Assembly: GCF_000182565.1 (NCBI RefSeq)
Contig: NW_015971544.1
Location: 918,848 to 982,847, forward strand
Length of the DNA stretch: 64,000 nt
Reading direction: 5' to 3'
Source: Spizellomyces punctatus DAOM BR117
Lineage: Eukaryota > Chytridiomycota > Chytridiomycetes > Spizellomycetales > Spizellomycetaceae
Position numbers and translations under genes: made by a program. The notes beneath the pieces were generated by a model. The model was given only the letters and a program-made list of their open reading frames with translations, had not been told where the DNA came from and ran no database searches. Of this stretch, positions 37,833-57,096 are shown in pieces (the stretch's first letter is position 1; each line of letters begins with the position of its first letter).

Positions 37833-39212
37833 ATAATGGCTAATTGCGTGGTGTATAAATTGGTATTGTGCGTCTTCAAAGTATGCTGTAAAAATTGTAA
37901 AATGAAAGACTCGGACAGTGGTTACACTTCACCGTCCAACTTGAATTGAAGATTAAGAAAGATATCACTATATCATGAACCACCTGTTGTAGCCAGCATT
38001 CAGCGAGCTTGTTTTAAACCCGTGCTCGTAACCTGAAGATCTTCAGCGAGGACTCTGATGATTACTTTCACTTTAAAAGGACACAGCAACAGCACTTTAG
38101 CTGACTGCGAAACTGAATACTACGGTGCACAGACGGTAAAACAGTGCACCACTATCGGCCAGCGGAATTATGGATTTGGAAAGGCAAAACCACCAAAGAA
38201 AATCTCTAGAGTGTGATCGGAATCGGGCCATGAAGAAGATGCGTCAGCAGGCATACTGGAAAACAATGAGTTCGGCGGCCAGTTTTCACAGAGGAAGCCC
38301 ATCAGAGAAGAATGGAACAGCCATCAAAGGAGACGAGCTCAACACGGCCTAAAGATTATGGAGAACGTAAAAGCCGACGATGGAAGGTCGATATCTGGTT
38401 GCAGATGGCCAGAGATTATTACCTGTTCTGCAGGTTCTGCAAGCGTCCGACCCCTGCCAATCACACAGTTTGCACCAACGAGTATTTCTGAAAAGCGGGA
38501 GTTCGATGTCTGCGAACTATGGCACTATAGGCAAACACTGGCTCTGTCCGTCGTGTCAGCAAATTCTCACTTAAATAAGGTGAGATTGGATATCGTCTGA
38601 AGTACACTATCTCATATGAGCTTGTGTGGGCACTCAATTTGACGAATAATTATACAGAATATGTGAATGTGAATATTGAAAATTGCCATTCAAGGTTGTT
38701 ACTTTTTGTGCGATATGTCAAGCTAACGAGACTGTCGTTCTACAGTGGCATTTTTCGGACAAATATTTGCGACAACGTTCTGAGTTTCCGCTCTTGTACA
38801 GATGGATGAATATATCGAGCTTGAGCTTCGAAAGCGATACGAAACTTAAGAAAGTATAAGTGGCTGGAGCGTCTGGCAGCCTAACCACCTCGGGCCATGC
38901 TATGCACCCGTCTGATCAAGGCACGATTGCACCCGACACTAAAATGCATCATGGTGACCCCTTCTATTGAACACTTAAAAGTTTCCGGGAAGGAAAACGC
39001 CAGGTGAAAATGCTTGTACAAAATACTCAACAGCTTTCCATAAACTGGGAAAATTACAGAAAATGGTCTGAGAACATCCGTTATATAATTCAGAGATATA
39101 ACCAAAAAGACTGTCGATATACTCGCTAACATTGCTTGCAGGTTTAGGACCAATCCGCGTAGCTAAGCACTTGTTTGGGAGACAGCACGCAAAAAGGCCT
39201 ATAACTCCTACA
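37833..39212. other. intergenic region with possible degenerate coding remnant
   Basis: About 1.4 kb between CCDC39 and the Fanzor transposon. Between about 38,160 and 38,600 several frames carry protein-like pieces, including a Cys/His-rich stretch (CRFCKRPTPANHTVC) and a second Cys pair (HWLCPSCQQ) in another frame. This suggests a decayed zinc-binding ORF. The part nearest 39,212 should be the distal promoter of the aldehyde dehydrogenase that continues beyond the insertion. Confidence 0.35.
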
Positions 39213-39242
39213 TAGTGCGGAGCCGGTGGGTATTGGCACTAG
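39213..39242 (+). repeat. left terminal inverted repeat of Fanzor transposon
   Basis: 30 bp beginning TAGTGCGGAGCC and ending GGCACTAG, a perfect inverted match to the right end. The base after it (39,243) mismatches. Bases 39,211-39,214 read CATA, where the TA is the outer dinucleotide of the repeat or the duplicated target. Confidence 0.93.
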
Positions 39243-39329
39243 TACAGTGATTCCAACCAATTGAATCATAATTTTACTCGATTTAGACTCATGAACTATG
39301 ATTTGATAATGGTTCGATGCACAAACGAT

Positions 39330-39421
39330 GCTCCACCATTAAAAATGGGTCCAATATGTGCGGCAATGAACGGATTGAATATTCTGCAGTTGCTCCACCA
39401 TTGAAAAACGGGTCCAATGTG
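39330..39421 (+). repeat. direct repeat pair in Fanzor promoter
   Basis: Two copies of a 30-bp motif, core GCTCCACCATT then GGGTCCAAT, at about 39,330 and 39,392 (62-bp spacing), just upstream of the TATA box. Possible transcription-factor sites. Confidence 0.6.
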
Positions 39422-39436
39422 CAGTTGTCATATCTC

Positions 39437-39444
39437 TATATAAA
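39437..39444 (+). promoter_or_regulatory. TATA box of the Fanzor gene
   Basis: TATATAAA lies about 110 bp before the Fanzor ATG at 39,553. It is followed by pyrimidine-rich leader sequence containing a repeated TTTCATCATTCTCTGCC. Confidence 0.55.
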
Positions 39445-39552
39445 CCCGCCTTCTCTGCCCATTTCCCAGGTTTTCATCATTCTCTGCCGATAGGCTTTCA
39501 TCATTCTCTGCCCATTTTCCAGGCTTTCATCCATTTTTCTATTCCAATCATC

Positions 39553-40920
39553 ATGCTGCCAAAGAAAAAGCAAAAGCTTGAAAAACCTACTTGCTTACAT
39601 ACCTGTAACAAGACTTCCTTTGCAAAAGCTTTCTTGCCAAACGAGATCTATCGCCAATGGCTTCTAGATTACATCGCCATCATCCATCAACTCGCCGACC
39701 ATGCTTCCCACGCTCTCAAATTCTACATCCTATCTGCACCAACCTTCACCATGAACGAGGAGACCATCGAAGCAATTCTCTATCTTCTCAACAAGGGGGA
39801 GGCTTGGCATCCAAGAAAGGAAGCAAAGAAGGCATGGCGGGATTGTTTGCTGCCATATGTTCAACGGTACTGCCAAATCATCAGCTTCGTTCACCCAAAT
39901 CTATGAGGTGAGCAGCAATCAGTCAATTACCTGACAGCGAGTATGATGGCGAACCTGAAAGTCAACGTTCAAGAGCATTTCATGCAGATGCTCCTTCAGT
40001 ATATCAATCTGCGGCTCGATGTGAAGGGACAGAAGCAGCGACTGCCACCGAAAAGCGATGCACGAAAGGCTTTCTTTGCTTGGCTACGCTACATGAAGTC
40101 AATTTTCCTTTTTGATATCATGCCCGAGTCGCTTGATGACTTGACTGCTGAAGAGAATGAACTTCTAGAAGAGATTTGGTCCCTTAACATTCCCCTTTCT
40201 GATGACCAGCCACTCGCATATTCCGTTGCTGTAGACCCTCTCGCATTCTTTCCTGCATACTGCAAACTCTCTGGGCTGTATGAACGACATGGCTTCCGTC
40301 GGTTCAGTGCCATTCCACTACGTCAATCCCTCATCCAAAGCCATGTGCGGATCGACACCATCATCCTCTACTCTCACCTTCTTTGCATCACGCGACGAGA
40401 AGCGGAAACTGTTGAAAAGGTCGATTTATGGTTGCGCGTCTGTAATCTGCGGAACAAGGCTTTTAGATCTCGTCGTGGAATGTGTTTTGAAGGCTCGATC
40501 ACCACGGATGGAACCTCGGTGTCTGTATACCTAAAGCACCCAGAAGCAGCAGACAAGTATGGAAAGCGCGGAGTGAGAAAGTCAGCAAAGAGTTTAGAGG
40601 ACGAAGTTAAAGCGCAATACATGGAGAAAAACTTACCTGCTTGTCGAGCAGCAGAGAATGTTGTCGTTATCGACCCAAACAAGCGCGATCTTCTCTACTG
40701 CCAAGACAGCCTTGGTACTACATTCCGTTACACCGCAAACCAGCGAGCCATGGAGACAGGTAGCCGCCGAATTGCAAGGGAGTGGGAAGCAATGAAAGCC
40801 GGCGGTATTGACCTCATAGAATCACGAATACCATCTCACAAGACGATGAACCTCATGGACTTTACTCGCTACCTTCTTGTTTGCCGCGCTGATTGGGATC
40901 ATCGCAAGGAGTTCTACTCC
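39553..40920 (+). pseudogene. Fanzor RNA-guided endonuclease, N-terminal part (broken)
   Basis: First 456 codons of a Fanzor, starting MLPKKKQKLEKPTC, whose basic run resembles a nuclear localisation signal. An in-frame TGA at 39,904-39,906 (after SFVHPNL) interrupts the frame. Reading resumes at once in the same frame, and no canonical intron of suitable length and phase removes the stop. The RuvC-I motif is VVIDPNKRDLLYC, with the catalytic Asp codon at 40,672-40,674. The frame ends at FYS, where the outer LTR begins at 40,921. Family knowledge: Fanzors carry a split RuvC nuclease related to TnpB/Cas12 and cut DNA guided by an omega-RNA. With two breaks this copy should make no full protein. 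Confidence 0.88.
40917..40920. repeat. target-site duplication of outer retroelement, left copy
   Basis: CTCC here recurs at 56,376-56,379 after the right LTR. If the terminal A of the LTR is counted with the flank it is a 5-bp ACTCC duplication. Removing the element and one copy restores the Fanzor frame. Confidence 0.75.
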
Positions 40921-41492
40921 TGTAGCGAACGACTCTGATAAACCGGTTCGCTCAAAGGCATCAGGTGACCACGATTGAGGTTTCCGCAATTGTAACCTAA
41001 GCTTCGAAACCCCTAAGATCAAACTCGGTTCTGGGCTACACCAGCGCAGCATGAAGGATACATTATGCAGCCATGATCGATCATGGCGATGGTCCGAGAT
41101 GGGAAGATTGGACGCCGCCACCCTAATGAAGGCTATGGAAACTAGTGTAGATGTTACCGTAGCATATTCTTGTATAAAAAGAGGAATTCAATAAAATAAG
41201 TCAGTGGCCAGAAGCCGTAGCGACAAAAAATCCCCACAACTAGCTTCTCAACCCCAATCCTAGGTTAACAGGAACCTAACAGAGCGCTTCAATGGCCTGA
41301 TCACCTGCACTGAAGCCTCTAAATCCTGCTCGGTTCACAACTAACCGACTCTCCTTGCCTCTCGCCCTCAAGTTGCTACTGACGCCCAAAGAAAGGATTT
41401 GGAGACTACGATTCCTAGTACGGACACCCACACAACCTGCTAGGAGACCCAAGTTGTCTTTACCGTAGTCTACCAACAAAAAATCCATTACA
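40921..41492 (+). repeat. outer element, left LTR (572 bp)
   Basis: Begins TGTAGCGAACGAC and ends TTACA. A TATAAAAA box at 41,173-41,180 and an AATAAA signal near 41,190 mark the promoter and polyadenylation region. No indels against the right LTR. Confidence 0.93.
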
Positions 41493-41508
41493 TGGTGGAG
41501 AAGCGCGA
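41493..41508 (+). promoter_or_regulatory. putative primer-binding site, outer element
   Basis: TGGTGGAGAAGCGCG follows the left LTR directly. It starts with TGG as expected for pairing to a tRNA 3'-CCA end; the tRNA is not identified. Confidence 0.5.
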
Positions 41509-41646
41509 TGAACTGCCTTCCCCTCTCAAATTCAGCTGAAAACCTTATTCGGTCATACCGAAACTCTTGCGCAAACCGAGATCCGCTCAGGTAGCTACTC
41601 GGAAACCTTTTCTCTCGTTTCAGAAACAGACTTCACGAAACCGAGA

Positions 41647-42663
41647 ATGATGCTGGTCGAACGCTCTCCAACGCGAGGCCGCTCACCTGTGATCCAGACT
41701 CGTAGTCAGGGTCCTGCGGAGGACATCGAAGTCCCTCCTGCAACACGCCCAAGGCATTCAGGGACCACTTCTGTCGAACCGGAAGCCCCTAACTTGGCCA
41801 CGATGGCCTCTGAAGTGGCAGCGTTAAAAGAAGACATTGCCAGCTCGACTGCTGCAATGCAGTTGGCAACTCAAAATCTTACGGAACAGCTTCATAGGCT
41901 TTCCGAACATCAGACAGTGGTGGATGAGCACCTCGCACGAGCCTTAGAAGCCCTAGCGCATCGCCCGCTGCCTGAACAACCTCTCATAGCACGAGCTACA
42001 AGAGAATGGTCCGCAACCCCGTGGGAAACGTCGCACACACCAAGGGAGTGTACCGAACCAAGTTTTTCAGGTCCAGTGCCTCCAATCCAAGTGCCAGCGG
42101 CCCCGTGGGCCAGCGACACCAAGGTCGATTCCTTGAAAGCAAAGGACGTACCCAAGTTTACAGGCAAAAGAAACCAAGACATTGAAGAATGGCTCAACAA
42201 AGTCCAACTTCTTCAAAACGTTAGCGCAACGTCAGATGCCAGGATGGTACAGCTCCTACCAGCCATGATAGCCGAGAAAACCCCTGCCGATGCTTGGTTT
42301 TACACTCTGGAAGCCCAGGAAACTTGCTCGTGGACCTGGAAAAGGTGGAAAGAAGAACTGCTTCGAGAGTTCCGAGATCCCCTAACCGAGTCCAAGTGCA
42401 AAACCGAATATGTGCACTGCCACGTGAACCCCAAAGAATTTTGCAGCTTTCTCGCATTCATTGACCACAAAACTCATCTCCAGCGCCTCGCATACGGCGA
42501 CCGGGCAAACATAGAATGTCCCGCTGACCAGCATTTTGACCTAATAGTTGAACAATTGCCCAGCGACATCCAAATCATGGTCAAATCCTGTAACGTCACG
42601 AACCTGACCAAATTAAAAGACTTCCTGCGCCTTTATTTTGGCTCTGATGACACCAGAAAATGA
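41647..42663 (+). CDS. outer element Gag
   Basis: 338-aa open frame starting MMLVERSPTRGRSP. A disordered N-terminus is followed by a coiled-coil-like stretch (about residues 55-100) and a Retrotrans_gag-type region (KDVPKFTGKRNQDIEEWLNKV ... WKRWKEELLREFRDPL ... YFGSDDT). It ends at TGA 42,661-42,663. The zinc knuckle that normally closes Gag (CKFCQKKHWNVFC, 42,832-42,870) lies beyond this stop in the same frame. The TGA is therefore more likely a CGA-to-TGA mutation than a natural Gag end, although stop read-through, as in some retroviruses, is an alternative. Confidence 0.8.
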   Translation: MMLVERSPTRGRSPVIQTRSQGPAEDIEVPPATRPRHSGTTSVEPEAPNLATMASEVAALKEDIASSTAAMQLATQNLTEQLHRLSEHQTVVDEHLARALEALAHRPLPEQPLIARATREWSATPWETSHTPRECTEPSFSGPVPPIQVPAAPWASDTKVDSLKAKDVPKFTGKRNQDIEEWLNKVQLLQNVSATSDARMVQLLPAMIAEKTPADAWFYTLEAQETCSWTWKRWKEELLREFRDPLTESKCKTEYVHCHVNPKEFCSFLAFIDHKTHLQRLAYGDRANIECPADQHFDLIVEQLPSDIQIMVKSCNVTNLTKLKDFLRLYFGSDDTRK

Positions 42664-45600
42664 GACCCTTGCTACAGCGGTGCTGCTGAAGCTCAGAAGA
42701 AGTCACAAAAGACCGGAACTGACAAAGGCCCTAAGCAGATGGCTCAACATAAAACCGGAAACCCCGAAAAGGGTTGCGACGGTCCTCAGAAGATGGTTCC
42801 GGACCCCAACAAGGAACCACCAACACCCTGCAAATTCTGTCAGAAAAAGCATTGGAATGTTTTCTGCTGGCAGAACCCGAACCGAAAAGATCCTGAAGAT
42901 GGAAAGAAAGGACCATACAGAGCACCCACGCCCGCAGGTTGGAAACCCAAACAGGAGTCCAAGAAGTCTTACATAGTGGAGCTGGACTCGATGTCCGCTA
43001 CCACCGAGACTCTTTTTTTGGCTTCGGAACTGGAAAGGACAGCTGCCGCTAATCAAGGATTCCACACCATTGGATTCTTTCATTCACCCAAGCACTTGGA
43101 ATCAACAATTTTGATGACCGCACCTCTTTCCGAGGTCATGGAGACTAAGGAAGAGGACCCCCGCATGCCCATGCAGGGCTGGGACCAAGTCTGGAACAAC
43201 ATAGCCATCATCTGGGGCACCCTGCAAGTGGCTCTGATGATGGGCAACAACCCCCGCGCGCTCAGCTTCTTTGCCAAAGAACTGAAGCAAGGCGCCGGGC
43301 ACCTCGGGAACGACCCCTACGCAGTCGCGTGGAGTTCCCACCACCTCTACATTGCTGCCGCAGCCGAAGCTGACAAGGATCGAATCCTGCGAAAAGTCCG
43401 AGAAGATGGTACCCCTCATTTGATCCTCCTTGCCTGGATAAGGCTCGATGAGCATGAGAAATTCTTGATGTGGAGCTCCGAAGATCCTGTTATCTTTGAT
43501 TCTTACACCAACCTGCAACTGGTGGCATTTCTCCTGACAGGCAATATCATTCGCTCAGACTATTATTATCATCGCAGAAACCCCAAATTTCTGCACATTA
43601 AAGACCATCCACGTCTCCAAAGACACGAAGAGAGTGAATGGACGCGTATAGTCATGCTGGCTATCGAACAAGTTGCTCGCCAGAATAAAACAACAAAACC
43701 ACAAAACAACAAATCTAGAGAGCACTTTGAGAGTGCGATCAAGGCTATGGAAGCAACAATTAACGACATTGCGCCCCATTTCGAGGTCGCGGTGCCTTCC
43801 ATCAACGCCTTCTACTTGGTAGATTTAGGCAATGTACTCAAAAGCCAGACCAAGACCCAAACGCAGCCTTGCTGGATGCTAGCCATCATCGCTCAGCTCT
43901 GGGCACCTGTGGTACTAGACACAGGAGCCTGCGAGTCTCTGGTTTCTGACACATACCAGGGCCTTCTGTTCTCCGAAACCAATTTGCAGGATGCAGAAAC
44001 GATGGCTTTCAAAGGCATTGGTGGATGTATCTCATCTACCAAGACAGTATGCCTCGAAACTTCCCTCAGAGGCCGCGGAGGAGAATACCTGACTTTCCGC
44101 GCCTATTTCCGAGTCATTGCATATGGGAAACCTCTCATCATCCTAGCCAACAATGTTCTGGGACATTTGAAACTCCAAACCTTGGTTCAGGAACCCCCGT
44201 TACCCAGTTTCATGGTGATGCTCAAGAATCCGGACATCCTTATCCCTTGCTCCATAACAGATGAGCTGGACACTGATCACATGCGCGGCACGCCATACAA
44301 GACCAAGCAGGGTGAATTCATGAAGGATGTGTCAATGCCACAGCTGACCAAAGCCAAAGCTCAGAAGTCTAGATTAACCATGTTAATCACGGGACAGACG
44401 CGTGTGGCAGCCCAAACTTTTCTCATCGAAAACCCTCTTGAGGCCACCGCTGCTAGCTCAACGGCCCTGTTAGGCCTCAAACTGTCCACCGCGACCCATA
44501 ATTCGGTTGCGGACCCCGAAGAGAACATTTCCAAAGAAGAATGGCAGACACTTCGGAACAAATGGAACCTTGACTCTACGGAGAGGGCTCCAGGGGCCTT
44601 CAAAGCCCAATTAAAAGACACGGAACATTTCCACGTCAATCTCAAGCAACCCAAACCCGTGGTCTGGGCCCTAATCAACATTCTACGACACTTCCATCAA
44701 GCCTTCAGCTATGAGGGTCATCTCATAGGGAACTACACCAAGATTCCTTATGCACCTCGATTTATCTCGGCTCCGCCACCCCTTTCGAGGCCACGGTCGT
44801 ACTCTCCGTTGGAGCGGACAGCCCTTGAGACGGAGCGAGACACCATGATGGGGCTTCAGAGGTGGAAACGAACCACCAAAGTAACCTTCGCCAGCGATCC
44901 TGTTATCATTCGCTATGCAGACAAACCCCCGCGGGTAGCCTTCGACTATCGCCGAGCCAATGACTGCATGGCCTGGGACCCATATCCCTTTCCCATCATG
45001 CTCGACATCCTGAACTGGATCGTTGCAGTCCCATTCCGATACATATCGGGAGGTGACGCAAACAAAGGATTTTACCAAATCGCCATCACCGATGCATCGG
45101 TACGCAAATGGCTCGTGATCAGACTCCATGACGGCATCTACGAACCACTCTTTATGCCCTTCGGACCCAAGACTGCCCCTTCGCACTTCTGTCAGGTGAT
45201 GGACGACACCTTGGGTCCCTCCAAATGGTGAAATATCAACAACTTTGTCGATGATATCCACACACGAGCGGAGACAGCCGCGGAAGCCCTAGATGCCATC
45301 GCGGACTGGCTCAACTGCTTTTCCAGAGCCAAACTCACCCTAAGACTCGACAAGTGTCAATGGCTCTTTCACCAGCTCACGGCTCTCGGTTTCGTTGCCT
45401 CCTCTCAGGGTCTCGCTACCGATCCAGACAAGGTCGCAACCATAGTCGATTGGCCACGACCCAAATTCATAGGTGACCTATGGTCCTTTGTGGGTCTCCT
45501 AGGGTTCTACGCCCAATTCATCCCCCGCTACGCGGAACTCGTCCGACCCCTGCAAGACACTATCCAAGAGGGCGTTCGCGAATACTGAGACCTTAAAAAG

Positions 45601-46078
45601 GGTCGCGCTGACCCAAAGAAAGGTGCTGAAAAGCTCAATTCACCATCCATGCTCGACACGGCGGTGGCCCCTACAATCACAGCCACTGGAGCCCGATTTG
45701 AGGTTTCGCAACATCCGAAATCTAGCTCCTCAGACCTACCGGCAGTCAATCTATGCCAATCATCGTTGGCGGACTTGCCCATTGACCCCTTTTGTGTCAG
45801 ATGCCTTGCTCGCAAGCGCCCCGACCAAGGTCTGCGCAGATTTATCGCGAAGCGTGAAGTTTCATGGACCGATTCCCGAAACTCTGCCTTTGCAGCTGCC
45901 AAGCAGGCTCTGACAACAGCTCCAGTGCTTGTGGCACCCAGAAAAGGGTTCCCCTACACCCTTCACAGTGACGCTTCCTACACAGCATTTAATGTCACGC
46001 TCAAACAGTTACAGCCAGATGCTTCTAAACGCCCACTGTGCTACCATTCCCGAGGCACCACCACCTCGGAAAAGAAGG

Positions 46079-46087
46079 CCCCCCCCC
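46079..46087 (+). other. nine-C run marking a frameshift in outer Pol
   Basis: RNase H coding shifts from frame 1 to frame 2 across this homopolymer (KKAPP before, VKLKAGCLIWGL after). This is a typical slippage-type single-base indel. Confidence 0.75.
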
Positions 46088-47856
46088 GTCAAACTCAAGG
46101 CCGGATGCCTCATTTGGGGCCTCGGAAAACTCCGCCCATACCTCGAAGGCCTGCCTTTCACGGTCATTACCGATCACCGAGCTCTTTTGTGGCTCGCTAA
46201 ATACAAAGGCGAGAACCGTAAGCTTCTCCGCTGGGCCCTCGATCTTAGTTACTGGTCCGAATGGATGACAATCATTCACAAACCAGGACGTTTTCACATT
46301 GTCGCTGATACACTTTCACGGCTACTAGGAGCGGAAACCCTCCTCTGCTCCACCGCGACCCAAATATGGGTGGCGGAACACGGAAGACGACGGCTGCGCA
46401 CCACACCAGCGGCTCTCGCACCTTCCTCAACACTGGCAGATGCCGCCTTCCGTCTGGCATTACAGCCTGCACTCATTGCCGCCATCCGTGCTGGCCTCAC
46501 CGGCCAGCTCCACCCCATAGCCCAACAGGCCTGCACGCTCCTATGGGAGACCAGCCCCAACACCTACACTACAGCCGACGCGCGCTTTCTTCAGGACTGG
46601 CAACGTGCAGATAACCTGCTGTGGCACCATTTTTCAGTCTCCGAAGACCTTTGGCGCCTCTACGTGCCCCCTGCTTGCACCCCCAAGGTGCGCAAGCTTT
46701 TTCACGAGGGGGGAGGACACTTCAGATTCGAAAGAACCTATGCCAGAGCCGCAGCGCAAGTCTGGTGGCCAAAGATGGCACAAGATTTCAGAAAACACTG
46801 CGCAGGATGTGAAATCTGTCAACACTCAAAAAGGGTACCGCAACTGATTCCGGGGTTGCTGAAACCCATACCACCAGCTCCGGGACACTGGACAGTCATC
46901 ACGACTGACTTTGTAACCAAGCTCCCACTTACTTCCAGAGGGTACGACGCCTTTTGGCTAATAGCATGTAAATGCTCAAAGAGGATCCATGTATGGCCCC
47001 TCAAGAGCACCGCGACAGCTATTCAGGTCGCGGAACTCTTTATAGAATGCTATGTCCCATTGCACGGCATTCCAGAGACTATTATCTCGGACCGCGACCC
47101 CAAGTTTACGAGTCAATTTTGGCAGGAGGTCTGCAAAAACCTAAAGATTAATCAAGAGCTCACCACAGCCTACCACCCTCAAGGTGATGGACAATCAGAG
47201 AGAGACAACGCAACGGTCTTGCAGGTCCTTACCACAGTGGTCAACACCCAATTAGACGACTGGGACACCTTTCTTCCGGTTGCGGAATTCATTATCAACG
47301 ATACGGTACACGAGGCGACAAAAATGACGCGATTCAGAATGGACCTAGGCTATGAGCCCCACAATCCACTGGCGGATATTGTCAAAAGGCCATCAGAAAC
47401 CAGAAATGCAGATGCGGAAGAGCTCTGTAAACACCTCGGTGACCTAAACATCCTTATCCAAGATCTGATGATCGAAGCCCAGGATTCGCAGAAAAGATAT
47501 TATGATTTATCGCGACGACATTTGGAGTTCCGGAGAGGAGATAAGGTGCTTCTGAGCACAAAAAACCTAGCAGGGTATGAGTCCAAGATCGCTCCGAAAT
47601 GGCTGGGACCAGTCACAGTGACTGACTGTAACCCTCTCCGTGACAACTACAAGTTAAAACTGCCAGACAAGATGAGACGACTTCATCCATGGTTTCACAT
47701 ATTGAAATTACATCCGTACCAGAAGCCTGTCGACGCCAAAACTGAGGAAAAGGTCGCGGAAGCACAAGCGGAGGATTCCGATGCTTCAGAGGGCGAGTTT
47801 GAAGTGGAAGTGATAGTAGACCATCGAACCAGGTGCGGAAAATGTCAATTTCGAAT

Positions 47857-47861
47857 ACATT
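47857..47861. repeat. target-site duplication ACATT of inner retroelement, left copy
   Basis: ACATT immediately before the inner left LTR; the second copy is at 54,477-54,481. Removing the inner element and one copy rejoins the chromodomain of the outer Pol in frame. Confidence 0.95.
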
Positions 47862-48415
47862 TGTGACAGAATTCTTCTGTCAGTGCTATGGTTATACTGG
47901 TTAGATGTGGTTCCAAACTAGTGGTCACATGACTTTGCTGATGGTGTCAGCATTCATTTGACCAGAATTAGATAAATAAGCAGATTTAGCCATTTCTGGC
48001 TAAATTAGATGAGTATCCTGACACACTAGCATCTGCCCCTTTTAATCAAGTGGCACAGTGTATTTAGGATGACTTCTCTCACTTGTGATTGGCCATAAAT
48101 GGTGCAATAGGCTGACAAATAGTTTAGGATGACATGTACAAGATCTGATTGGTTGCAAATGGTGCAATAGGCTGACAAATAGTTTAGGATGACATGTATG
48201 AGTTCTGATTGGTTGCAAATGGTGCAATAGGCTGACAAATAGTTTAGGATGACATGTATGAGTTCTGATTGGGTAGTTAGGATATAGCATTTGTCAGCCC
48301 CTTTTGTCTATAAAAAGAGGACCTCTCTGAGGCCCCTCAAAGGAAAAAAATAACAAGTAGTAACCAAGTCTTCCCTAGTTTTCTGTTGTCTTCTTGTCCC
48401 TGCTAGCCTGTTACA
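47862..48415 (+). repeat. inner element, left LTR (554 bp)
   Basis: TGTGACAGAATTC ... CCTGTTACA. Contains four 60-bp tandem units and a TATAAAAA box at about 48,309. No CG dinucleotide seen. The right copy lies 6,061 bp downstream. Confidence 0.95.
48063..48290 (+). repeat. 60-bp tandem repeats inside inner LTR (U3)
   Basis: About four copies of a 60-bp unit with the landmarks TTTAGGATGAC, TGATTGG, GGTGCAATAGGCTGAC and AAATAG. The repeated TGATTGG/ATTGGC contains the CCAAT-box core on the other strand, so this looks like a multiplied U3 enhancer. The same array recurs at 54,124-54,351. Confidence 0.85.
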
Positions 48416-48427
48416 TGGTAGCACCAC
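48416..48427 (+). promoter_or_regulatory. primer-binding site, inner element
   Basis: TGGTAGCACC directly follows the LTR. It matches the complement of the initiator-Met tRNA 3' end (TGGTAGCGCC in yeast, from memory) except for one base, notably the one that would create a CpG. Confidence 0.6.
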
Positions 48428-48822
48428 CTTAGACAACAACCCCAGACTCTTAGACCTTCTGTGAGAGATCAGAAGCTAAGATCCCCAGACCCCCAGACCC
48501 TGCCCTAGACCTTCTGAGTAATATCAGAAGACCAACAGACCCCAGACCCCAGACCCTGCCCTAGTCCTTCTGAGTAATATCAGAAGACCCCTGCCTCTTA
48601 TCCCAGGCCCAACTTATGCCCAGAACCCCCCCTCAAGGACTCCTACAGACCAGCCCACACCACCCCATACCACAAACCTACCCCCAGCACAACCTCCAGA
48701 ACTACCACCAGACACACCACTTGGTTAGCATCAGAAGCTCTGATAAAACAGATAGAGCTTTTCTATTGTGGGATTGTGAAGAAGCTGTAGTGTCCCCCTG
48801 TATCCTCCCCACCAGTTGTACT

Positions 48823-49014
48823 TGCAAGTAACATTGCATAGTTTGGGCCTGTGACCCACCCTGTCTTGACTGCAAGTAACATTGCATCTCTTGGGCCTGT
48901 GACCCACCCTATCTTGACTGCAAGTAACATTGCATCTCTTGGGCCTGTGACCCACCCTATCTTGACTGCAAGTAACATTGCATCTCTTGGGCCTGTGACC
49001 CACCCTATTGTTAT
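48823..49014 (+). repeat. 48-bp tandem repeats in inner element leader
   Basis: Four copies (the last partial) of a 48-bp unit beginning TGCAAGTAACATTGCA. Each unit contains the inverted repeat TGCAA/TTGCA with a six-base loop, then TTGGGCCTGTGACCCACCC. Located just upstream of the gag ATG; possible packaging or translation-control structure. Confidence 0.85.
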
Positions 49015-49062
49015 TGTTACAAGTTATATTGTAACTACCCAAGACTCCATCCCATTACCACC

Positions 49063-49974
49063 ATGGCCAGCCAGGAAGAGATTCTCTTCAACACCATTGC
49101 TGAGCTTGACATAGACCAGGTCAGGCAGGAGCTTTATCAAGCAAAGCTCCAGCAGCTGAACTCCACCACACCAGCCCCTGCTCAGTACCAACCCAGAGTA
49201 GATAAATCCCTGGTAAAAGTCCTCCAAAGCAAGTTGAAGCCCTACAAAGGCAACAGGAATGTCGAAGAGATTAGGACATACCTCCTCAGACTTGAAGAGT
49301 ACTTCCAGGCAGCTGCAGATCTATCACCAGAAGGCCAACTGTTAGTAGCCACCACCTACTTGGAACTCCATGCTGAAGTCTGGTGGCAAAGCCATGTCAA
49401 GAACCACCCAGTAGGATCCCCTCTCAGAATCCAGTCTTGGGACCAGTTCAAGAGAGCCCTTCAAGAGAACTTCCTCCCAGCAAATGCCACCAGAGCAGCA
49501 AGAGACCAGTTGGCCAGGCTCAAACAACAAGGCTCAGTAAAAGAGTACCTAAACCAGTTCAATACTTTATGCCTTCAGGTGGATGACTTGTCAGAAGCTG
49601 AAAAGTTAGACAAGTTTATCAGAGGGCTTAAACCCAGGGTTCAGGAACAACTGGAGCTCAACCCCACCAGTACCATCAACTTAGCCACAGCTGCAGCAAC
49701 AGCTGATAGGATTGACCAGATCCAGTTCAGCTACCAGAGAAGAAGCCAGGCCACCAGCTACTACTCCCCCAAGACTGAGAACTCTGGAGTAGTCCCTATG
49801 GAGATAGATAGTATATCCACCAACTCTGGGAAGCCTCTCTCCAAACTCACTGAGGCTGAGAAGACTGAGCTCAGAAAGAAGGGAGCCTGTTTCAGGTGCA
49901 GAAAACCAGGCCATATTGCCCCCCTATGCCCCTTGAAGACCAAGCAGCAGGGAAATGGCAAGCAGACTCAGTAG
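49063..49974 (+). CDS. inner element Gag
   Basis: 303 aa from [16 protein letters not shown]. Central Retrotrans_gag region ([16 protein letters not shown] ... [14 protein letters not shown] ... [19 protein letters not shown]) and a C-terminal zinc knuckle [14 protein letters not shown] (C-x2-C-x4-H-x4-C). Forms the virus-like particle and binds RNA. Stops at TAG 49,972-49,974, overlapping the pol frame. Confidence 0.93.
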
Positions 49975-52900
49975 AAGATAGAGGTTCTGCCTCTACTGGG
50001 GAAGATATCAAGAACCACCACCCTGACACCCACCACCTGGTACACTCTCCTGTTATTCAACCCTTGGACCTATTGGACCCACCTGAAACCACCCCTGAGA
50101 CTTTAACTATCCATGGACTTTACCTGGAACCCCAGAGAACCCCAGCATCCCAGAGAACCCCAGAAACCCAGAGAATCCCAGAATCCCAGAGAACCCCAGA
50201 AACCCAGAAAATCCCAGGACCCCTGAGAACCCCAGAATCCCAGAGAACCCCAGAAACCCAGAGAACCCCAGAACCCCAGAGAACCCCAGAAACCCAGAGA
50301 ACCCCAGAACCCCAGAGAACCCTAGAACCCCAGAAAACCCAGGAACCCCAGAGAACCCCAGAACCCCAGACCACCCAGGCCACCTACCAAGAAAGCAAGA
50401 TCCATGTAGTAGAGGTGGCTCCATACTCTTTAAGTACCCCCAAAGGGCCAAGGATTCCCCAGAGTCACTTGCTGACTGTGCAAGGTAGAATCCAAGGAAT
50501 CCCAGTAACCATTCTCCTGGATAATGGGGCAAACCAACTCTATGTGTCACAGTCCTTTGTCAAGAAGGCACAACTGGTGACTCATTCTCTCCCTGGAGCA
50601 GAAATCTCTATGGCTGATGACAGAAAGCACCAAGAAATAGGCTTTGTCAAAGGTCTTCAGTACTCAGTAGGAACCTACACAGAACAGTCAGACTTTATAG
50701 TAGCCCCAATCAAGTTTGACTTGATCTTGGGTATACCTTGGTTTGCCTGGAGGAATCCCAGTATCAACTACAACAAGAACACTGTGACCTTCACCACTTC
50801 CCAGTACCCCAGAGTCAGATGGTTTGTTAAGCAGGCCAGCTCTTCCAACAAATCCCAGAAGTCCAATCTTATCACCATGGTATCAGCAAAGATGTTGGCC
50901 AGAACACTGAAGAAGAGGACAGCAACAGCTTTTGCTGTGTATCTCAAGAACCCTCAAGATACCAGCACCCCTCCAGACACCATGGATTCCAAAGTCACCA
51001 AGCTTCTTGAAAACTATCAAGATGTCTTTGCTGAAGAGCTTCCCCCAGGACTTCCCCCTGAGAGATCAGTAGATCACAGAATTGAACTCAGTGACCCCAA
51101 CCAGACCCCCTGGAGACCAACCTACCACCTCTCTTCTTTGGAGTTGGAAGAACTGAGGAAGCAGCTTTCAGAGCTTCTGGAGGCAGGCCACATCAGACCA
51201 TCGAAGAGCCCATTTGGAGCACCTATCCTCTTTGTTAAGAAGAAAGAAGGTTCTTTGAGGATGTGTGTGGACTACAGGGCTCTGAATAAAATCACCATCA
51301 AGAACAGATATCCCCTCCCTAGGATTGATGAGCTGATGGATAGGCTGAATGGAGCCCAGGTGTTTACCAAGCTAGATCTGAAGTCAGGCTATTACCAGAT
51401 CAGAGTCCACCCAGAAGACATCCCCAAGACAGCCTTCAGAACCAGATATGGTCACTTTGAGTTCCTGGTCATGTCCTTTGGAATGACCAATGCCCCAGCC
51501 ACTTTCATGACTTTGATGAATGATGTCCTTAGACCCTTCTTGGACATCTTTGTTATTGTCTACCTAGATGACATCCTCATCTACTCCAAGACCCCAGAAG
51601 ATCACCTGGACCACCTCAAGCAGGTTCTGCAAGCCCTCAGGCAGAACAAGCTGTATGCCAACCCCAGCAAGTGCCAGTTCTTCAAGCAAGAAGTAGAGTT
51701 TCTTGGCTATGTAGTCTCACATGAAGGAGTCAAGCTTGATCCCAAGAAAGTGCAGACTGTTCAAGAATGGCCCACCCCTCAGAGTGTCACTGAAGTCAGA
51801 CAGTTCATGGGCCTGGTGAACTACTTCCATAGCTTTCTGAAGGACCTGGCAGAGCAAGCTGCACCATTGACAGACCTGTTGAGAAATGACAAGCCTTGGA
51901 CCTGGTCTGAACCTCAGGAGAAAGCTTTTCAGCAGCTGAAGGATATGGTCACCAAAGCCCCTGTACTCAGACCCTTTGACCCAGCCTTGCCTACCACTGT
52001 CTTCCCTGATGCCTCAGGCTATGCAGTTGGTGCATGGCTTGGACAGGATGATGGGAAAGGCATGAGACCAGTTGCCTACCACTCCAGGAAGATGGCCCCA
52101 GCAGAGACCAGATATGACACCAGAGAACAAGAGCTGTTAGCCATCCATGATGCCCTCAGAGTTTGGAGGCCCTACCTGCAAGGAACCCCCTTCAAAGTTA
52201 TCTCAGACCACCAGTCCCTCAAGTGGCTACAGAACCAGCCCTTCTTGACCAGAAGACAAGCCAGATGGGTCATGAATTTCCAATCTTTTGACTTTGAGAT
52301 TGGCTATGGCCCAGGAAGACTCCACACAGTGGCAGACATCCTGTCTAGAAGACCAGACCTGGCCCCAAGATGCATCAAGTGCAAGGCCTTGGTGACAGCA
52401 GAGTTGAATGCTGTGACCCACACCACCAGCACCCTTCAAGAGAGATTGAAGACCAGTACCACAGAAGACCCAGAACTTCAAGAGCTCATCCAAGCTTTGG
52501 ATGACCCCAGGAGACCAGAAGACCAGCAACAAAGGCTCAAGTACCTCAGCCATCAAGATGGGTTACTCTATTTCCAGGACAGGATCTTTGTTCCTAGTGA
52601 CCCAGACCTAAGGTTGAGCCTACTCCAAGAAACCCATGACACTCAGTATGCTGGACACTTTGGCATCACCAAGACCCATGATGCCCTAGCAAGGCATTAC
52701 TACTGGCCAAGGATGTACAAGGACATTAAGAAGTATGTCAAGTCTTGTGATTCCTGCCAGAGAAGCAAACCTAGTCAGCAACCACCAGCAGGCTTGCTGC
52801 AGCCCCTCCCAGTACCCAAGACCAGATGGAGCCAGATCTCCATTGACCTGATCCCTGACCTACCCATGACTTCCTCTGGTCACAATGCCATCTTTGTCAT

Positions 52901-53906
52901 TGTTGACAGATTGTCAAAGAGAGGCCACTTCATCCCTACCACCACCAAAGCCTCAGCCAAGGACCTGGCCCTGCTCTTCTTGAAGCACATCTTCAAGCAC
53001 CATGGCCTCCCAGAAGTGATTGTATCAGACAGAGACACCAAGTTCACCAGTTCATTCTGGTCCAACTTGATGCAACTCTTAGGCTGCAACACCCTCCTAG
53101 CCACTGCAAGACACCAGCAGACCAATGGACAGGCAGAGAGAACCATCAAGACTTTGAAGATCTACCTGAGAGCTTTCCTGGAGTACAACATGAAGAATTG
53201 GGAAGATCTTCTCCCCTTTGCTGAGTTTGCCTACAACAACAGCATCTCAGAAACCACAGGCTTCACCCCATTCTACTTGGAGAATGGCCAGCATCCCAGG
53301 ACCCCAGCAACACCACCAGGAGAAAGCAATGATCCTGAAGCAACAGACTTCCACCAGTATATTCAGCAACTGCTTCAAGTAGCCAAGGATAACATGATAC
53401 TGGCCCAAGAAAGACAAGTTCAGCAAGCCAACAAGTCTCTCAGCAAGGCCCCAAGCTACCCCCTAGGCTCCAAAGTTTGGCTGTCTAGAGAAGGTATCAC
53501 CCCAGAAGAAGAAGCCCAGAGGCCAGCCCAGAAACTTCTTCACCCCTGGCTTGGACCTTACAGAATCAAGGCCAAGGATGAATTTCAGAATTACACCCTG
53601 GAGCTCCCCAGCACCATGAAGATTCATCCAGTGTTCCATGTGAGACTCCTCAAGCCTTACCTGGACCCCACAGAGGACTTCCCTACCAGACCAGTACCCC
53701 CTGAGCCTGAGCCAATTATCCAGCAAGGAGAAGAGTTTTGGGAAGTTGAGAAGATTCTGGACCACAAGATCAGAAGGAAGAAGAATCTCTACCTCATCAA
53801 GTGGAAAGGATATCCCTCCTCTCAGAACACCTGGGAACCAGAAGAAAACCTCCTACCCCATGGCAGAGAAATCTTGAAGGAGTTCCTAGCCCAGAAGGGA
53901 GCTTAA
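49869..53906 (+). CDS. inner element Pol (PR-RT-RNase H-IN-chromodomain)
   Basis: Frame -1 relative to gag, open from 49,869 (after a TGA at 49,866-49,868), with a first ATG at 49,896. Expression probably needs a -1 shift within the 103-nt overlap. A proline-rich repeat follows, then protease [12 protein letters not shown], where Asn replaces the usual Thr/Ser of [40 protein letters not shown]. RNase [21 protein letters not shown]. Integrase: [15 protein letters not shown] ... [35 protein letters not shown]-terminal chromodomain ([37 protein letters not shown]) would target insertion to marked chromatin. No stops or frameshifts seen; likely functional. Confidence 0.93.
50130..50385 (+). repeat. 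18-bp in-frame repeats in inner Pol (PE-x-QR-T)
   Basis: A run of about 14 imperfect six-residue units of the form T-P-E-(T/P/S)-Q-R lies between the gag/pol overlap and the protease. Probably a flexible linker; repeat number likely varies among copies. Confidence 0.85.
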
Positions 53907-53910
53907 TCTT

Positions 53911-53922
53911 AAAGTGGGGGAG
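53911..53922 (+). promoter_or_regulatory. polypurine tract, inner element
   Basis: AAAGTGGGGGAG lies directly before the right LTR, as expected for the plus-strand DNA synthesis primer. Confidence 0.7.
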
Positions 53923-54476
53923 TGTGACAGAATTCTTCTGTCAGTGCTATGGTTATACTGGTTAGATGTGGTTCCAAACTAGTGGTCACATGACTTTGCT
54001 GATGGTGTCAGCATTCATTTGACCAGAATTAGATAAATAAGCAGATTTAGCCATTTCTGGCTAAATTAGATGAGTATCCTGACACACTAGCATCTGCCCC
54101 TTTTAATCAAGTGGCACAGTGTATTTAGGATGACTTCTCTCACTTGTGATTGGCCATAAATGGTGCAATAGGCTGACAAATAGTTTAGGATGACATGTAC
54201 AAGATCTGATTGGTTGCAAATGGTGCAATAGGCTGACAAATAGTTTAGGATGACATGTATGAGTTCTGATTGGTTGCAAATGGTGCAATAGGCTGACAAA
54301 TAGTTTAGGATGACATGTATGAGTTCTGATTGGGTAGTTAGGATATAGCATTTGTCAGCCCCTTTTGTCTATAAAAAGAGGACCTCTCTGAGGCCCCTCA
54401 AAGGAAAAAAATAACAAGTAGTAACCAAGTCTTCCCTAGTTTTCTGTTGTCTTCTTGTCCCTGCTAGCCTGTTACA
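53923..54476 (+). repeat. inner element, right LTR (554 bp)
   Basis: Appears identical to the left LTR, including the 60-bp array, and is followed by the ACATT duplication at 54,477-54,481. Confidence 0.95.
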
Positions 54477-54481
54477 ACATT

Positions 54482-54960
54482 GGTCAGGATACCCACCCCA
54501 TGAGGATACCTGGGAACCAGAGGAAGCCCTAACAGAGGCTTCCGAAGCCTTAGAAGAGTACTGGAGATCCAGAGCCCCCACTAGCGCACTAGTAGAGGAC
54601 TCTTTGGTAGTCAGCCTTGCAGGCAACGCCCCGGAAGATACGGCTTACGCTTCCGACCACCAATGCTTCGCGGTTTATCCGGATGATAGCTCACGTGATA
54701 ATCACGCCCTCTCTCCAGAAAGAAAACCAGTTTCGCGTGGCTTACCTCACCAGTCGAGAACGCCACACCAAGCCTCCCGATCATGCTTACGCGCGTCCGA
54801 GCTGTCAAAATCAGCCGGCGACGACCTTAAAAGGGCGCCCCTGCTCGCCCCCCCTCTTTTTTCTTCTTCAACTACCAACGAACTACTTCCCTTACACACT
54901 CACTCTGCTTCGCAAACCCTTTCTATCGACACCGAAACAAAAGCTTTCATTTCCAACACC
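54482..54960 (+). pseudogene. outer Pol, C-terminal part (rest of chromodomain)
   Basis: Continues the split outer Pol. The chromodomain resumes with SGYPPHEDTWEPEEALTEAS and EEYW. The frame then stays open through Pro/Ser-rich sequence into the third ORF. Whether Pol stops being meaningful after about 54,600 is unclear; no stop separates it from the ORF starting at 54,961. Confidence 0.75.
54820..54960 (+). promoter_or_regulatory. possible internal promoter of the third ORF
   Basis: CTTAAAAGGGC at about 54,828 is followed by a C/T-rich tract, CAAC-rich leader and CCAACACCATG. This arrangement is typical of fungal promoter plus 5' leader and unlike protein-coding sequence, although the frame is open through it. 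Confidence 0.4.
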
Positions 54961-55746
54961 ATGACCACCGATATCCGAGGACAACAAGGAGTCAGCATCC
55001 TCTCTACCCTTGAGGAAGGCTATCCCTGGTCAGAAGTAAGCGACGCCTTCACTGCCGAGAACTCTATCAAGCGGCTCGGAGCAGCCATGGCCACCTGGGT
55101 CGAAGTTTGGATTCGTGAGTTGTACGAAGACCCAAACAAAACCCTTGAACACTATCGTGGTGAAGATTGGGTGGTTGACAGGGCTTCAAAGCCTTACGCC
55201 ACGAGCCAGCCCCTCATGATGCATATCGCGGAGCCCTACAGTAGGGCTTCCGACAGCGGTCAAGCTGCTGTCGGTATCGTCGCCAATGCAAAAAAGATAG
55301 GCAAGAGATTACGGGACGTACCCTGCGCTGCCTGGCTTGATGCTGGGGTCCCTCAACATGCGGCCGGAAACCCCAAAACGGCCTGCTTCACCCTCTGGCC
55401 CGATCACGAGGCCCACGATTTCGCGGACATAGCCATCGAAGCCGCGAGAGCAGTGTTGTTAAAGCTAGCCAATGCAGCTGAAACCACAGAAGAGCAGCTC
55501 CGTCCCAAACATCGGGAGCACGCCTATTACCACTTTCGAGTGGTTAACTTGAAAAGGGCCGCAGAGACGTTCACAGCCCTCTACGTAACCCGAGCCAACG
55601 GTTCCAGGACACCTGGAACCCCGGCTCCGGAAGCCACTGACCAAATTTGGTTCTGCGCGAACGTCATGGGGCGCGCTACCATAATCTGGACGATCAACGA
55701 AGACAGCCTTGAAGCTGACGACGACTATCCAGTTGCGTCATGGTAG
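54961..55746 (+). CDS. third ORF of outer retroelement, unknown function
   Basis: 261 aa from MTTDIRGQQGVSILSTLEEG to TAG at 55,744, between the end of pol and the polypurine tract. Mixed alpha/beta-looking composition: AAMATWVEVWIRELYEDP, WLDAGVPQHAA, ARAVLLKLANAAETTEEQL, YHFRVVNLKRAAETFTALYV, IWFCANVMGRATIIWTINED. No domain recognised and no similarity to Env, Gag or Pol that I can see. It is open although pol is broken, and has its own likely leader. Its position resembles that of env or other accessory genes in plant and animal LTR elements. It could be a C-terminal extension of Pol. Confidence 0.65.
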   Translation: MTTDIRGQQGVSILSTLEEGYPWSEVSDAFTAENSIKRLGAAMATWVEVWIRELYEDPNKTLEHYRGEDWVVDRASKPYATSQPLMMHIAEPYSRASDSGQAAVGIVANAKKIGKRLRDVPCAAWLDAGVPQHAAGNPKTACFTLWPDHEAHDFADIAIEAARAVLLKLANAAETTEEQLRPKHREHAYYHFRVVNLKRAAETFTALYVTRANGSRTPGTPAPEATDQIWFCANVMGRATIIWTINEDSLEADDDYPVASW

Positions 55747-55789
55747 AAGCGAGGTTCAGGCACTCACAGACGAGTCGCCGAACCTTCTT

Positions 55790-55803
55790 TTTCGAAGGGG
55801 GGA
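55790..55803 (+). promoter_or_regulatory. polypurine tract, outer element
   Basis: CGAAGGGGGGA lies immediately before the right LTR at 55,804. Confidence 0.65.
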
Positions 55804-56375
55804 TGTAGCGAATGACTCTGATAAACCGGTTCGCTCAAAGGCATCAGGTGACCACGATTGAGGTTTCTGCAATTGTAACCTAAGCTTCGAAACCCCTAAG
55901 ATCAAACTCGGTTCTGGGCTACACCAGCGCAGCGTGAAGGATACGTTACGCAGCCATGATCGATCATGGCGATGGTCCGAGATGGGAAGATCAGACGCCG
56001 CCACCCTAATGAAGGCTACGGAAACTAGTGTAGACGTTACCATAGCATATTCTTGTATAAAAAGAGGAATTCAATAAAATAAGTTGGCAGCCAGAAGCCG
56101 TAGTGACAAAAAATCCCCACAACTAGCTTCTCAACCCCAATCCTAGGTTAACAGGAACCTAACAGAGCGCTTCAACGGCCTGATCACCCGCACTGAAGCC
56201 TCTAAATCCTGCTCGGTTCACAACTAACTGACTCTCCTTGCCTCTTGCCCTCAAGTCACTACCGATGCCCAAAGAAAGGATTTGGAGACTACGATTCCTA
56301 GTACGGACACCCACACAACCTGCTAGGAGACCCAAGTTGTCTTTACCATAGTCTACCAACAAAAAATCCGTTACA
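55804..56375 (+). repeat. outer element, right LTR (572 bp)
   Basis: Same length as the left LTR, no indels, 25 substitutions, all transitions at CpG-derived sites. Confidence 0.93.
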
Positions 56376-56379
56376 CTCC

Positions 56380-56889
56380 CATCCTGCTCATACTCGATGG
56401 AAATGGCACTCTTTCATCAATCGGCAGCAAAGCGAATCAGACCTCATAAGTAACATGCACAACAAGTATGGTGAAAACTTTACTGTTGTGATGGGTGATT
56501 GGAGTGACGCTGGTCGAACTGCGAGATTTCAGACCTCATCAAAGACAATAGGCTGGTGCACTGTCTTCAAGCAGAACAGGATCAACTGCTTCCTTCTCGA
56601 CGAGTACAAGACCTCATCTGTCTGCCCTCACTGTTCATCCGATGACTTCCTTGAAAAAAGCTTCAAAACACGACCTCATTCAAGACCTTGGCGACGACGA
56701 GAAGGCAAGATTGAAAAAGTCCATGGATTGCTGGGTTGTACCAACCCTAACTGTCAGCAAGCCTGGACGATGCGCTACTGGAATCGAGATACGCTGAGCA
56801 CCTGCAATATGCTGATAATCGTGCAATCAATGTTGGATGGACACAGTAGACCAGAAGTGTTCAGCAGGAGTGTTCCAGCCGTAGCTTAG
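56380..56889 (+). pseudogene. Fanzor RNA-guided endonuclease, C-terminal part (broken)
   Basis: Resumes the Fanzor frame after the retroelement (HPAHTRWKWHSFINRQQ) and runs to TAG at 56,887-56,889. It contains VVMGDWSDAGRTARF, the Thr-Ser-Ser plus C4 zinc finger (TSSVCPHC; Cys codons at 56,623 and 56,632, then CTNPNC at 56,737 and 56,752) and the closing RD motif WNRDTLSTCNM, with the RuvC-III Asp codon at 56,788-56,790. Order and spacing fit the published Fanzor pattern D ... [TS][TS]-x2-C4 zinc finger ... RD. Key residues are intact, so disruption of the frame, not erosion of the motifs, is what inactivates this copy. Confidence 0.9.
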
Positions 56890-56977
56890 ATTGGTTAGAT
56901 TAGGTTTTCCGAGCCGGTTGTCGCCGGTTCAATCCCTGGTGCGGGTGCTAGTGCCAATACCCACCGGCTCCGCACTA
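56890..56977 (+). ncRNA. candidate Fanzor omega-RNA scaffold / right end
   Basis: Begins right after the Fanzor stop. A 7-bp hairpin (56,911-56,917 with 56,924-56,930, one G-U, six-base loop) is followed by a second one pairing 56,939-56,944 (GTGCGG) with 56,970-56,975 (CCGCAC). The latter spans the right TIR. In Fanzor and TnpB systems the guide is the sequence just past the right end, here from 56,978 (CCTTTCCTGGACTTG). Location and structure fit; transcription is not shown. Confidence 0.55.
56948..56977 (-). repeat. right terminal inverted repeat of Fanzor transposon
   Basis: Perfect reverse complement of 39,213-39,242, ending GGCTCCGCACTA. Confidence 0.93.
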
Positions 56978-57096
56978 CCTTTCCTGGACTTGAATATAAG
57001 ATGGGGTCGCTCTGAATCCTATTCGCATATCTATCTAGCTTCAACACACGCTAGTGGTAGTGGTCTATTCTCCTCGTCTTGCATCTGAAGAACATC
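56978..57096 (+). promoter_or_regulatory. remaining promoter of the decayed aldehyde dehydrogenase
   Basis: Sequence between the transposon end and the ATG at 57,097 contains a TATA-like GAATATAAG at about 56,991-56,999. The transposon therefore separated the core promoter from everything upstream. Confidence 0.5.

Follow-up and report, generated by a model that had tools for sequence, protein, structure and literature searches.

SPu-1 is a family of transposable elements in the chytrid fungus Spizellomyces punctatus. It was described as about 2.1 kb long with 33-bp terminal inverted repeats (TIRs), putative TA duplications, a single Fanzor1 open reading frame (ORF), and many copies, and three Fanzor1 families were listed for the species (Bao & Jurka 2013, PMC3627910). 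Saito et al. (2023, PMC10432273) reported 42 Fanzor loci, 134 ghost loci, and 11 loci whose ends enclose additional genes, Ty3 among them. The SpuFz1 protein (solved structure 8gkh) is active in vitro, its target-adjacent motif (TAM) is CATA, and its omega-RNA consists of a 75-nt scaffold and a 14–15-nt guide (PMC10432273). The authors of that paper state that they detected no SPu-1 transposase, and they describe what Fanzor does for its host as unknown. Here, an SPu-1 copy is described at positions 39213–56977 of a 64,000-nt stretch of S. punctatus DAOM BR117 (contig NW_015971544.1, positions 918,848–982,847, forward strand; hereafter the window), together with its relatives in the searched genome (24.0 Mb, 29 contigs).

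The window copy is a decayed element of this published family. The observation stands but belongs to a known kind, and its value lies in the relatives. The reading as a whole is very probable: the window holds a dead SPu-1 copy that has kept its ends, CATA, and omega-RNA region, the family would be served by a DDE transposase in trans, and Fanzor would drive restoration of the excised site. SPu-1, with Fanzor1 and an omega-RNA at its right end and without a transposase, would be moved by a Tc1/mariner-IS630-type DDE transposase, for which the best candidate is C3:533347-534552. After excision, Fanzor with this omega-RNA would cut the empty site (CATA plus guide), and repair from an element-carrying copy would then restore SPu-1. 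The dead window copy can no longer make the protein, yet its omega-RNA might still serve intact SpuFz1 produced at another locus, a role that the published ghosts may have as well.

Structure of the window copy

The preliminary description claimed a Fanzor gene broken by a stop and an insertion within perfect 30-bp inverted repeats, and this account held up. All 30 bases of the left TIR (39213–39242, + strand) are complementary to the right TIR (56948–56977, + strand); taken as 33-mers, the ends match at 97%. They are the published 30/33-bp SPu-1 ends, CA precedes the left end, and TA stands at both junctions. The transposon ends are well preserved, as had been proposed.

Three pieces of one + strand Fanzor1 gene lie between the ends and are consecutive along the 8gkh chain. 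The N-terminal part (39553–39906, 117 aa) begins with ATG at 39553 and stops at an in-frame TGA (39904–39906); its match to 8gkh spans 39553–39903 (E 9.3e-61), and a Pfam search gave no match. The middle part (39907–40920) carries the RuvC aspartate in IDPNKRD and has 273 of 341 aligned positions identical to 8gkh (E 2.6e-181). The C-terminal part (56380–56889) carries DEYKTSS, the zinc finger, and WNRD, ends with TAG at 56887–56889, and is identical at 153 of 172 aligned positions (E 1.1e-103), with small deletions. The motifs named in the preliminary description, including the C4 cysteines, all fall within these alignments, in the Fanzor1 order of RuvC aspartate, TS-x-x-C4 zinc finger, and terminal RD. 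Of the two Fanzor halves first outlined, both are genuine and match SpuFz1 rather than unrelated families, but 39553–40920 is not one part: it is two stretches of one frame split by the stop. A single open frame is absent, with the stop at 39904 and the insertion at 40921. The protein is broken because of the in-frame TGA and a nested pair of Ty3 insertions (40921–56375), and the window copy is a pseudogene and a dead SPu-1 member. Judged from sequence, it is a paralogue, in the same genome, of the locus encoding the solved SpuFz1, a closer tie than the "related copy" first suggested.

CATA, the published TAM of SpuFz1 (PMC10432273), spans the left junction (39211–39214, + strand); CA is flank and TA is the duplicated target dinucleotide. 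The predicted omega-RNA scaffold region of 75 nt, a length taken from the same paper, occupies 56903–56977 (+ strand), includes the right TIR, and ends with it as in SPu-1. It folds at −33.7 kcal/mol (z −3.24) with two main hairpins. The 138 bp up to the right end (56840–56977) are 100% identical at five genome places, the window included. By the published position rule (PMC10432273), 14–15 nt past the right end, the would-be guide is 56978–56992 (+ strand). The copy fits the published description of SPu-1 loci, and it may be seen as an incipient ghost, with no protein and a putative omega-RNA region whose guide suits its own empty site. The 3′ long terminal repeat (LTR) of the outer Ty3 element has its end about 0.5 kb upstream, points the same way, and might promote transcription of the omega-RNA.

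RNA polymerase III was also considered, as the right end holds stretches resembling the A-box and B-box consensus. This idea was dropped: related copies read GGTTCATTCCC, ARAGORN detected no tRNA in the window, and Rfam gave no match, even at E 10 on 56800–57060. The B-box-like GGTTCAATCCC is present in 49 matches, 32 of them exact.

Across the genome, SPu-1 ends gave 74 matches at ≤3 mismatches, and a backwards-pattern control gave 0. Fanzor matches number 65 and fall into 57 clusters. At C17:214221-215240, the segment compared agrees with the solved SpuFz1 at 340 of 340 residues, by which the genome was taken to be that of S. punctatus.

A candidate transposase

A DDE_3 search of the genome gave two matches, one of them intact (C3:533518-533943, in a frame of 408 aa). 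The corresponding IS630-like transposase candidate (C3:533347-534552, 402 aa; locus L074) scores 47.9 bits against PF13358 (cut-off 28.6) and 86.2 bits against the IS630 model NF033545 (E 2.7e-24), below the cut-off of 100. Residues D208, D288, and E333 are invariant across 14 aligned proteins and presumably form the catalytic triad. The gene lies between 29-nt inverted repeats that are 93% complementary. These ends, SPu-1, and the ghosts have a common frame, TAGTG....G.........A.TG.CAC. The L074 ends match the right end of L073 and class B ghosts (described below) at 22 of 27 positions, the ghost left end at 21 of 27, and SPu-1 at 18 of 27. A match of 22/27 was attained in 1 of 200000 TAGTG-keeping shuffles, best of five targets. 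The comparison suggests that the L074 protein is the best candidate for a mover of SPu-1 in trans.

Alternatively, the L074 transposase may be unrelated to SPu-1, with only the TAGTG start in common, and the mover may be another or an extinct enzyme. This is possible, though we lean away from it. It accords with the single intact copy, with the report of no transposase between SPu-1 ends (PMC10432273), and with the lack of significant DNA likeness beyond the ends between L074 and the four elements compared (one SPu-1, one class A ghost, one class B ghost, and L073), but it leaves the 22/27 match to chance and passes over the only intact DDE_3 gene found in the genome search.

Pairing the 74 main and 47 ghost-type end matches gave no transposase, the pairs seen holding a Fanzor match or spanning <1.2 kb; the interiors of other long end pairs lie outside this check. 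The L074 element has a class A ghost as a neighbor at a distance of about 170 bp (L074:3234-3997). The element itself (L074:41-3066) also carries + strand ORFs at 449–868 and 1077–1637, one of which has a weak SUKH-3 match below the cut-off and is possibly a cargo gene. A DDE_3 fragment at C5:992487, near a ghost (L075), was rejected: the well-matching shared-frame ends there are the ghost's own two, and two further end hits have 2 mismatches each. Three loci with transposase remnants (L082–L084) have no shared-frame end within 2 mismatches.

Left flanks and right ends

A second Fanzor1, divergent and probably intron-bearing, is encoded at L073:279-2570 (C7:72500-76500). Its open frame of 568 aa is 24% identical to the window Fanzor piece and aligns with 8gkh (E 7.9e-13). 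By visual inspection, a GT..AG intron is followed by an exon with WNRD. The closest relative found is from Borealophlyctis (51%). The L073 Fanzor1 possibly belongs to the three families listed by Bao & Jurka (2013). The last 193 bp of its element are 96% identical to the right end of a class B ghost, and its left end is of the class A ghost right-end type.

Class A ghosts have a SpuFz1-type right end, with the motif CCGGTTGTCGCCGG in most of those read, and class B ghosts have an L073-type right end. Class A was assigned by a listed gR3-type right end within 1 kb, not by a read omega-RNA; class B was assigned by a listed partner in 9 of 12 cases and by reading in 3 of 12. A sample pair of the two classes is 93–95% identical across most of the element's first 230 bp.

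In the fetched SPu-1 loci, CA stands on the outer side of 27 of 28 distinct left ends and of 4 of 32 right ends (Fisher 9e-12). Ghost flanks were counted among the matches listed (100 of 372, 100 of 108, and 100 of 108). With an unchanged 28-bp left end, class A ghosts read CA-TA in 40 of 42 cases, the other two having TA; with the same 28-bp left end, class B ghosts read T-TA in 12 of 12 and never CA (Fisher 2.7e-10). At L105, L106, and L108, flanks of CT or AT were seen before the right ends were read, and all three were then class B; L105 and L106 are within the 12, and L108 has a changed TIR. Among the matches listed, 68 left ends carry the 28-mer unchanged, position 12 being T or C, and 17 of these ends are without a listed partner (12 CA, 2 CT, 2 AT, and 1 AA). 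Eight of the unpaired ends were read: L103 (CT), L105 (CT), and L106 (AT) are class B, the omega-RNA motif of L102 (CA) places it in class A, and L097 and L100 (CA), L107 (AA), and L110 (AT) showed neither end type. When changed TIRs are included, class A reads CA in 63 of 67 listed matches, the other four having TA; this wider list tilts to CA because the search pattern contained CA. An L073-like fragment in L076 has the left flank CT.

Since the same left end has a different flank depending on the right end, the flank tracks the omega-RNA end and not the left end. The one-sidedness and the flank switch are not expected from a symmetric transposase preference. The simplest cause of the flank rule is Fanzor with its TAM, acting by restoring lost copies or by steering insertion. 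These flanks suggest an influence of the cutter on the set of insertions observed.

Some transposases favor particular bases around TA. CATA at the left end might then reflect insertion preference only, with Fanzor playing no part in element location; TA is the duplicated dinucleotide in SPu-1, the two ghost classes differ in the right TIR too, and the right end might conceivably determine a preference. We consider this unlikely, as a symmetric complex should produce neither a CA bias confined to one side (27/28 against 4/32) nor, among the matches listed, CA-TA and T-TA flanks on one and the same 28-bp left end. It is likewise improbable that Fanzor picks the insertion site, the omega-RNA-protein complex tethering the transposase to the TAM and the bias arising from insertion rather than loss. 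Such contact between Fanzor and transposase would be hypothetical, and TnpB is not known to tether a transposase to its TAM; on the other hand, nearly all counted copies follow the flank rule, so that pure loss must remove almost all others, and the four class A exceptions all have TA, as decay of CA would yield. Continued nuclease function of the window copy, by stop readthrough or splicing over the insertion, can be set aside almost entirely: the fragments retain intact catalytic motifs, but the ORF has a 15.5-kb insertion, an in-frame TGA, and small C-terminal deletions.

Several observations weigh against movement in trans followed by Fanzor-driven restoration. Among the end pairs checked, no transposase lies inside SPu-1 ends, the L074 candidate is one intact copy, and its ends match SPu-1 at only 18/27, a value attained in 98 of 200000 TAGTG-keeping shuffles. 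The L074 flanks (TA left, TTA right) suit TTA better than TA, as TTA fits both. The genome-wide transposase search covered the DDE_3 family and the L074 protein itself. Restoration of excised sites by Fanzor would follow by likeness to TnpB, and the window omega-RNA is predicted from sequence and fold. Other observations weigh against the flank rule. Nine unpaired CA ends are unread, and therefore class B elements with CA could be overlooked; in the wider list, class B reads T in 15 of 16 listed matches and CA in one (C4:976367). The left flank of L073 itself is CA, though that end is of the class A right-end type. The L073-type/class B right end folds no better than shuffles (z 0.06 and −0.73), which weighs against a structured omega-RNA there; the putative class B/L073 omega-RNA is placed by position and conservation only. 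The base after the right TA is A in 5 of the 11 class B ghosts that were read, which allows a weaker right-side preference.

A broader scheme, in which one IS630-type transposase moves several end-sharing Fanzor/omega-RNA families, has about even chances. Each Fanzor1 lineage would fix its own left flank through the omega-RNA end, CA-TA for SpuFz1 and HT-TA for L073 (where H stands for A, C, or T), a right-module swap would have switched the flank, and Fanzor cutting would decide persistence or landing. If this is true, a TAM near 5′-HTTA is predicted for the L073 Fanzor, and ghosts can be grouped by the nuclease they use. The relatives bear on two points left open by Saito et al. (PMC10432273), the SPu-1 transposase and the role of Fanzor. 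Both points become directly testable, given a specific transposase gene and elements with a common left end but distinct omega-RNA ends and flanks. The transposase, L073, and flank leads are absent from the excerpted literature that names both Fanzor and Spizellomyces punctatus.

Nested Ty3 elements and other Fanzor copies

The insertion is two nested Ty3/gypsy elements. The outer element (40921–56375, + strand) has LTRs at 40921–41492 and 55804–56375, encodes integrase and RNase H domains, and is flanked on both sides by CTCC (40917–40920 and 56376–56379). Its LTRs are 95.6% identical over 572 bp by self-comparison; 25 of 572 sites differ, every one a transition, and a comparison one base beyond the LTR length gives 26 differences. 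Seventeen of the 25 are C-to-T at CpG, counting either strand, and the remaining 8 are pairs of adjacent changes, as expected from lost CpG. The inner element (47862–54476, + strand) has LTRs at 47862–48415 and 53923–54476 and encodes reverse transcriptase, RNase H, integrase, and a chromodomain. Its gag and pol frames are open, and it looks intact. Its LTRs are identical (554/554), and the inner insertion is therefore later than the outer.

The inner element has 2 CpG in 6615 bp (observed/expected 0.01), and the window outside 39213–56977 has a ratio of 0.89. Its pol frame has 1 CpG versus about 213 expected from the codon usage of the outer element, and all 78 arginines are AGA or AGG. In Spizellomyces, 5-methylcytosine is restricted to transposons (PMC12695648), and the near-absence of CpG may represent escape from CpG methylation. 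In-frame stops within the Fanzor matches of the genome are TGA in 43 cases, TAA in 1, and TAG in 1, an excess of TGA that fits CpG decay. An array of ~18-nt repeats lies inside the inner pol frame (window 50091–50412). Part of the inner element was compared with a phage collection without a match, which is uninformative.

Two further Fanzor1 copies, C9:618009-619025 and C9:622969-623985, are about 5 kb apart and show only 58% and 56% identity with the window piece. The locus covering the first (L077) has no shared-frame end within 2 mismatches. At C10:2726-4940, a SpuFz1-type Fanzor (77% identical) with 2 in-frame TGA lies between ghost-type ends, which may reflect a swap of ends and genes among families.

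Comparison with known systems

The window copy resembles the published SPu-1 family in its 33-bp TIRs, TA duplication, and single Fanzor1 ORF in an element of ~2.1 kb (PMC3627910), but unlike it is broken by a stop and nested Ty3 elements. With SpuFz1 (PMC10432273, 8gkh), its same-genome paralogue, it shares the TAM position and the omega-RNA region; SpuFz1 is active in vitro and the window copy is a pseudogene. The ghost Spu-1 elements of Saito et al. (2023) likewise have an omega-RNA and ends, no usable protein, and CA before the left end. Unlike them, the window copy keeps Fanzor pieces, and class B ghosts differ in their right end and T-TA flanks. The mariner elements PGv-1 and PUl-1 (Bao & Jurka 2013) also combine Fanzor1 with TA-duplicating ends, but their transposase lies within the same element, whereas in S. 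punctatus the candidate found here would act in trans only.

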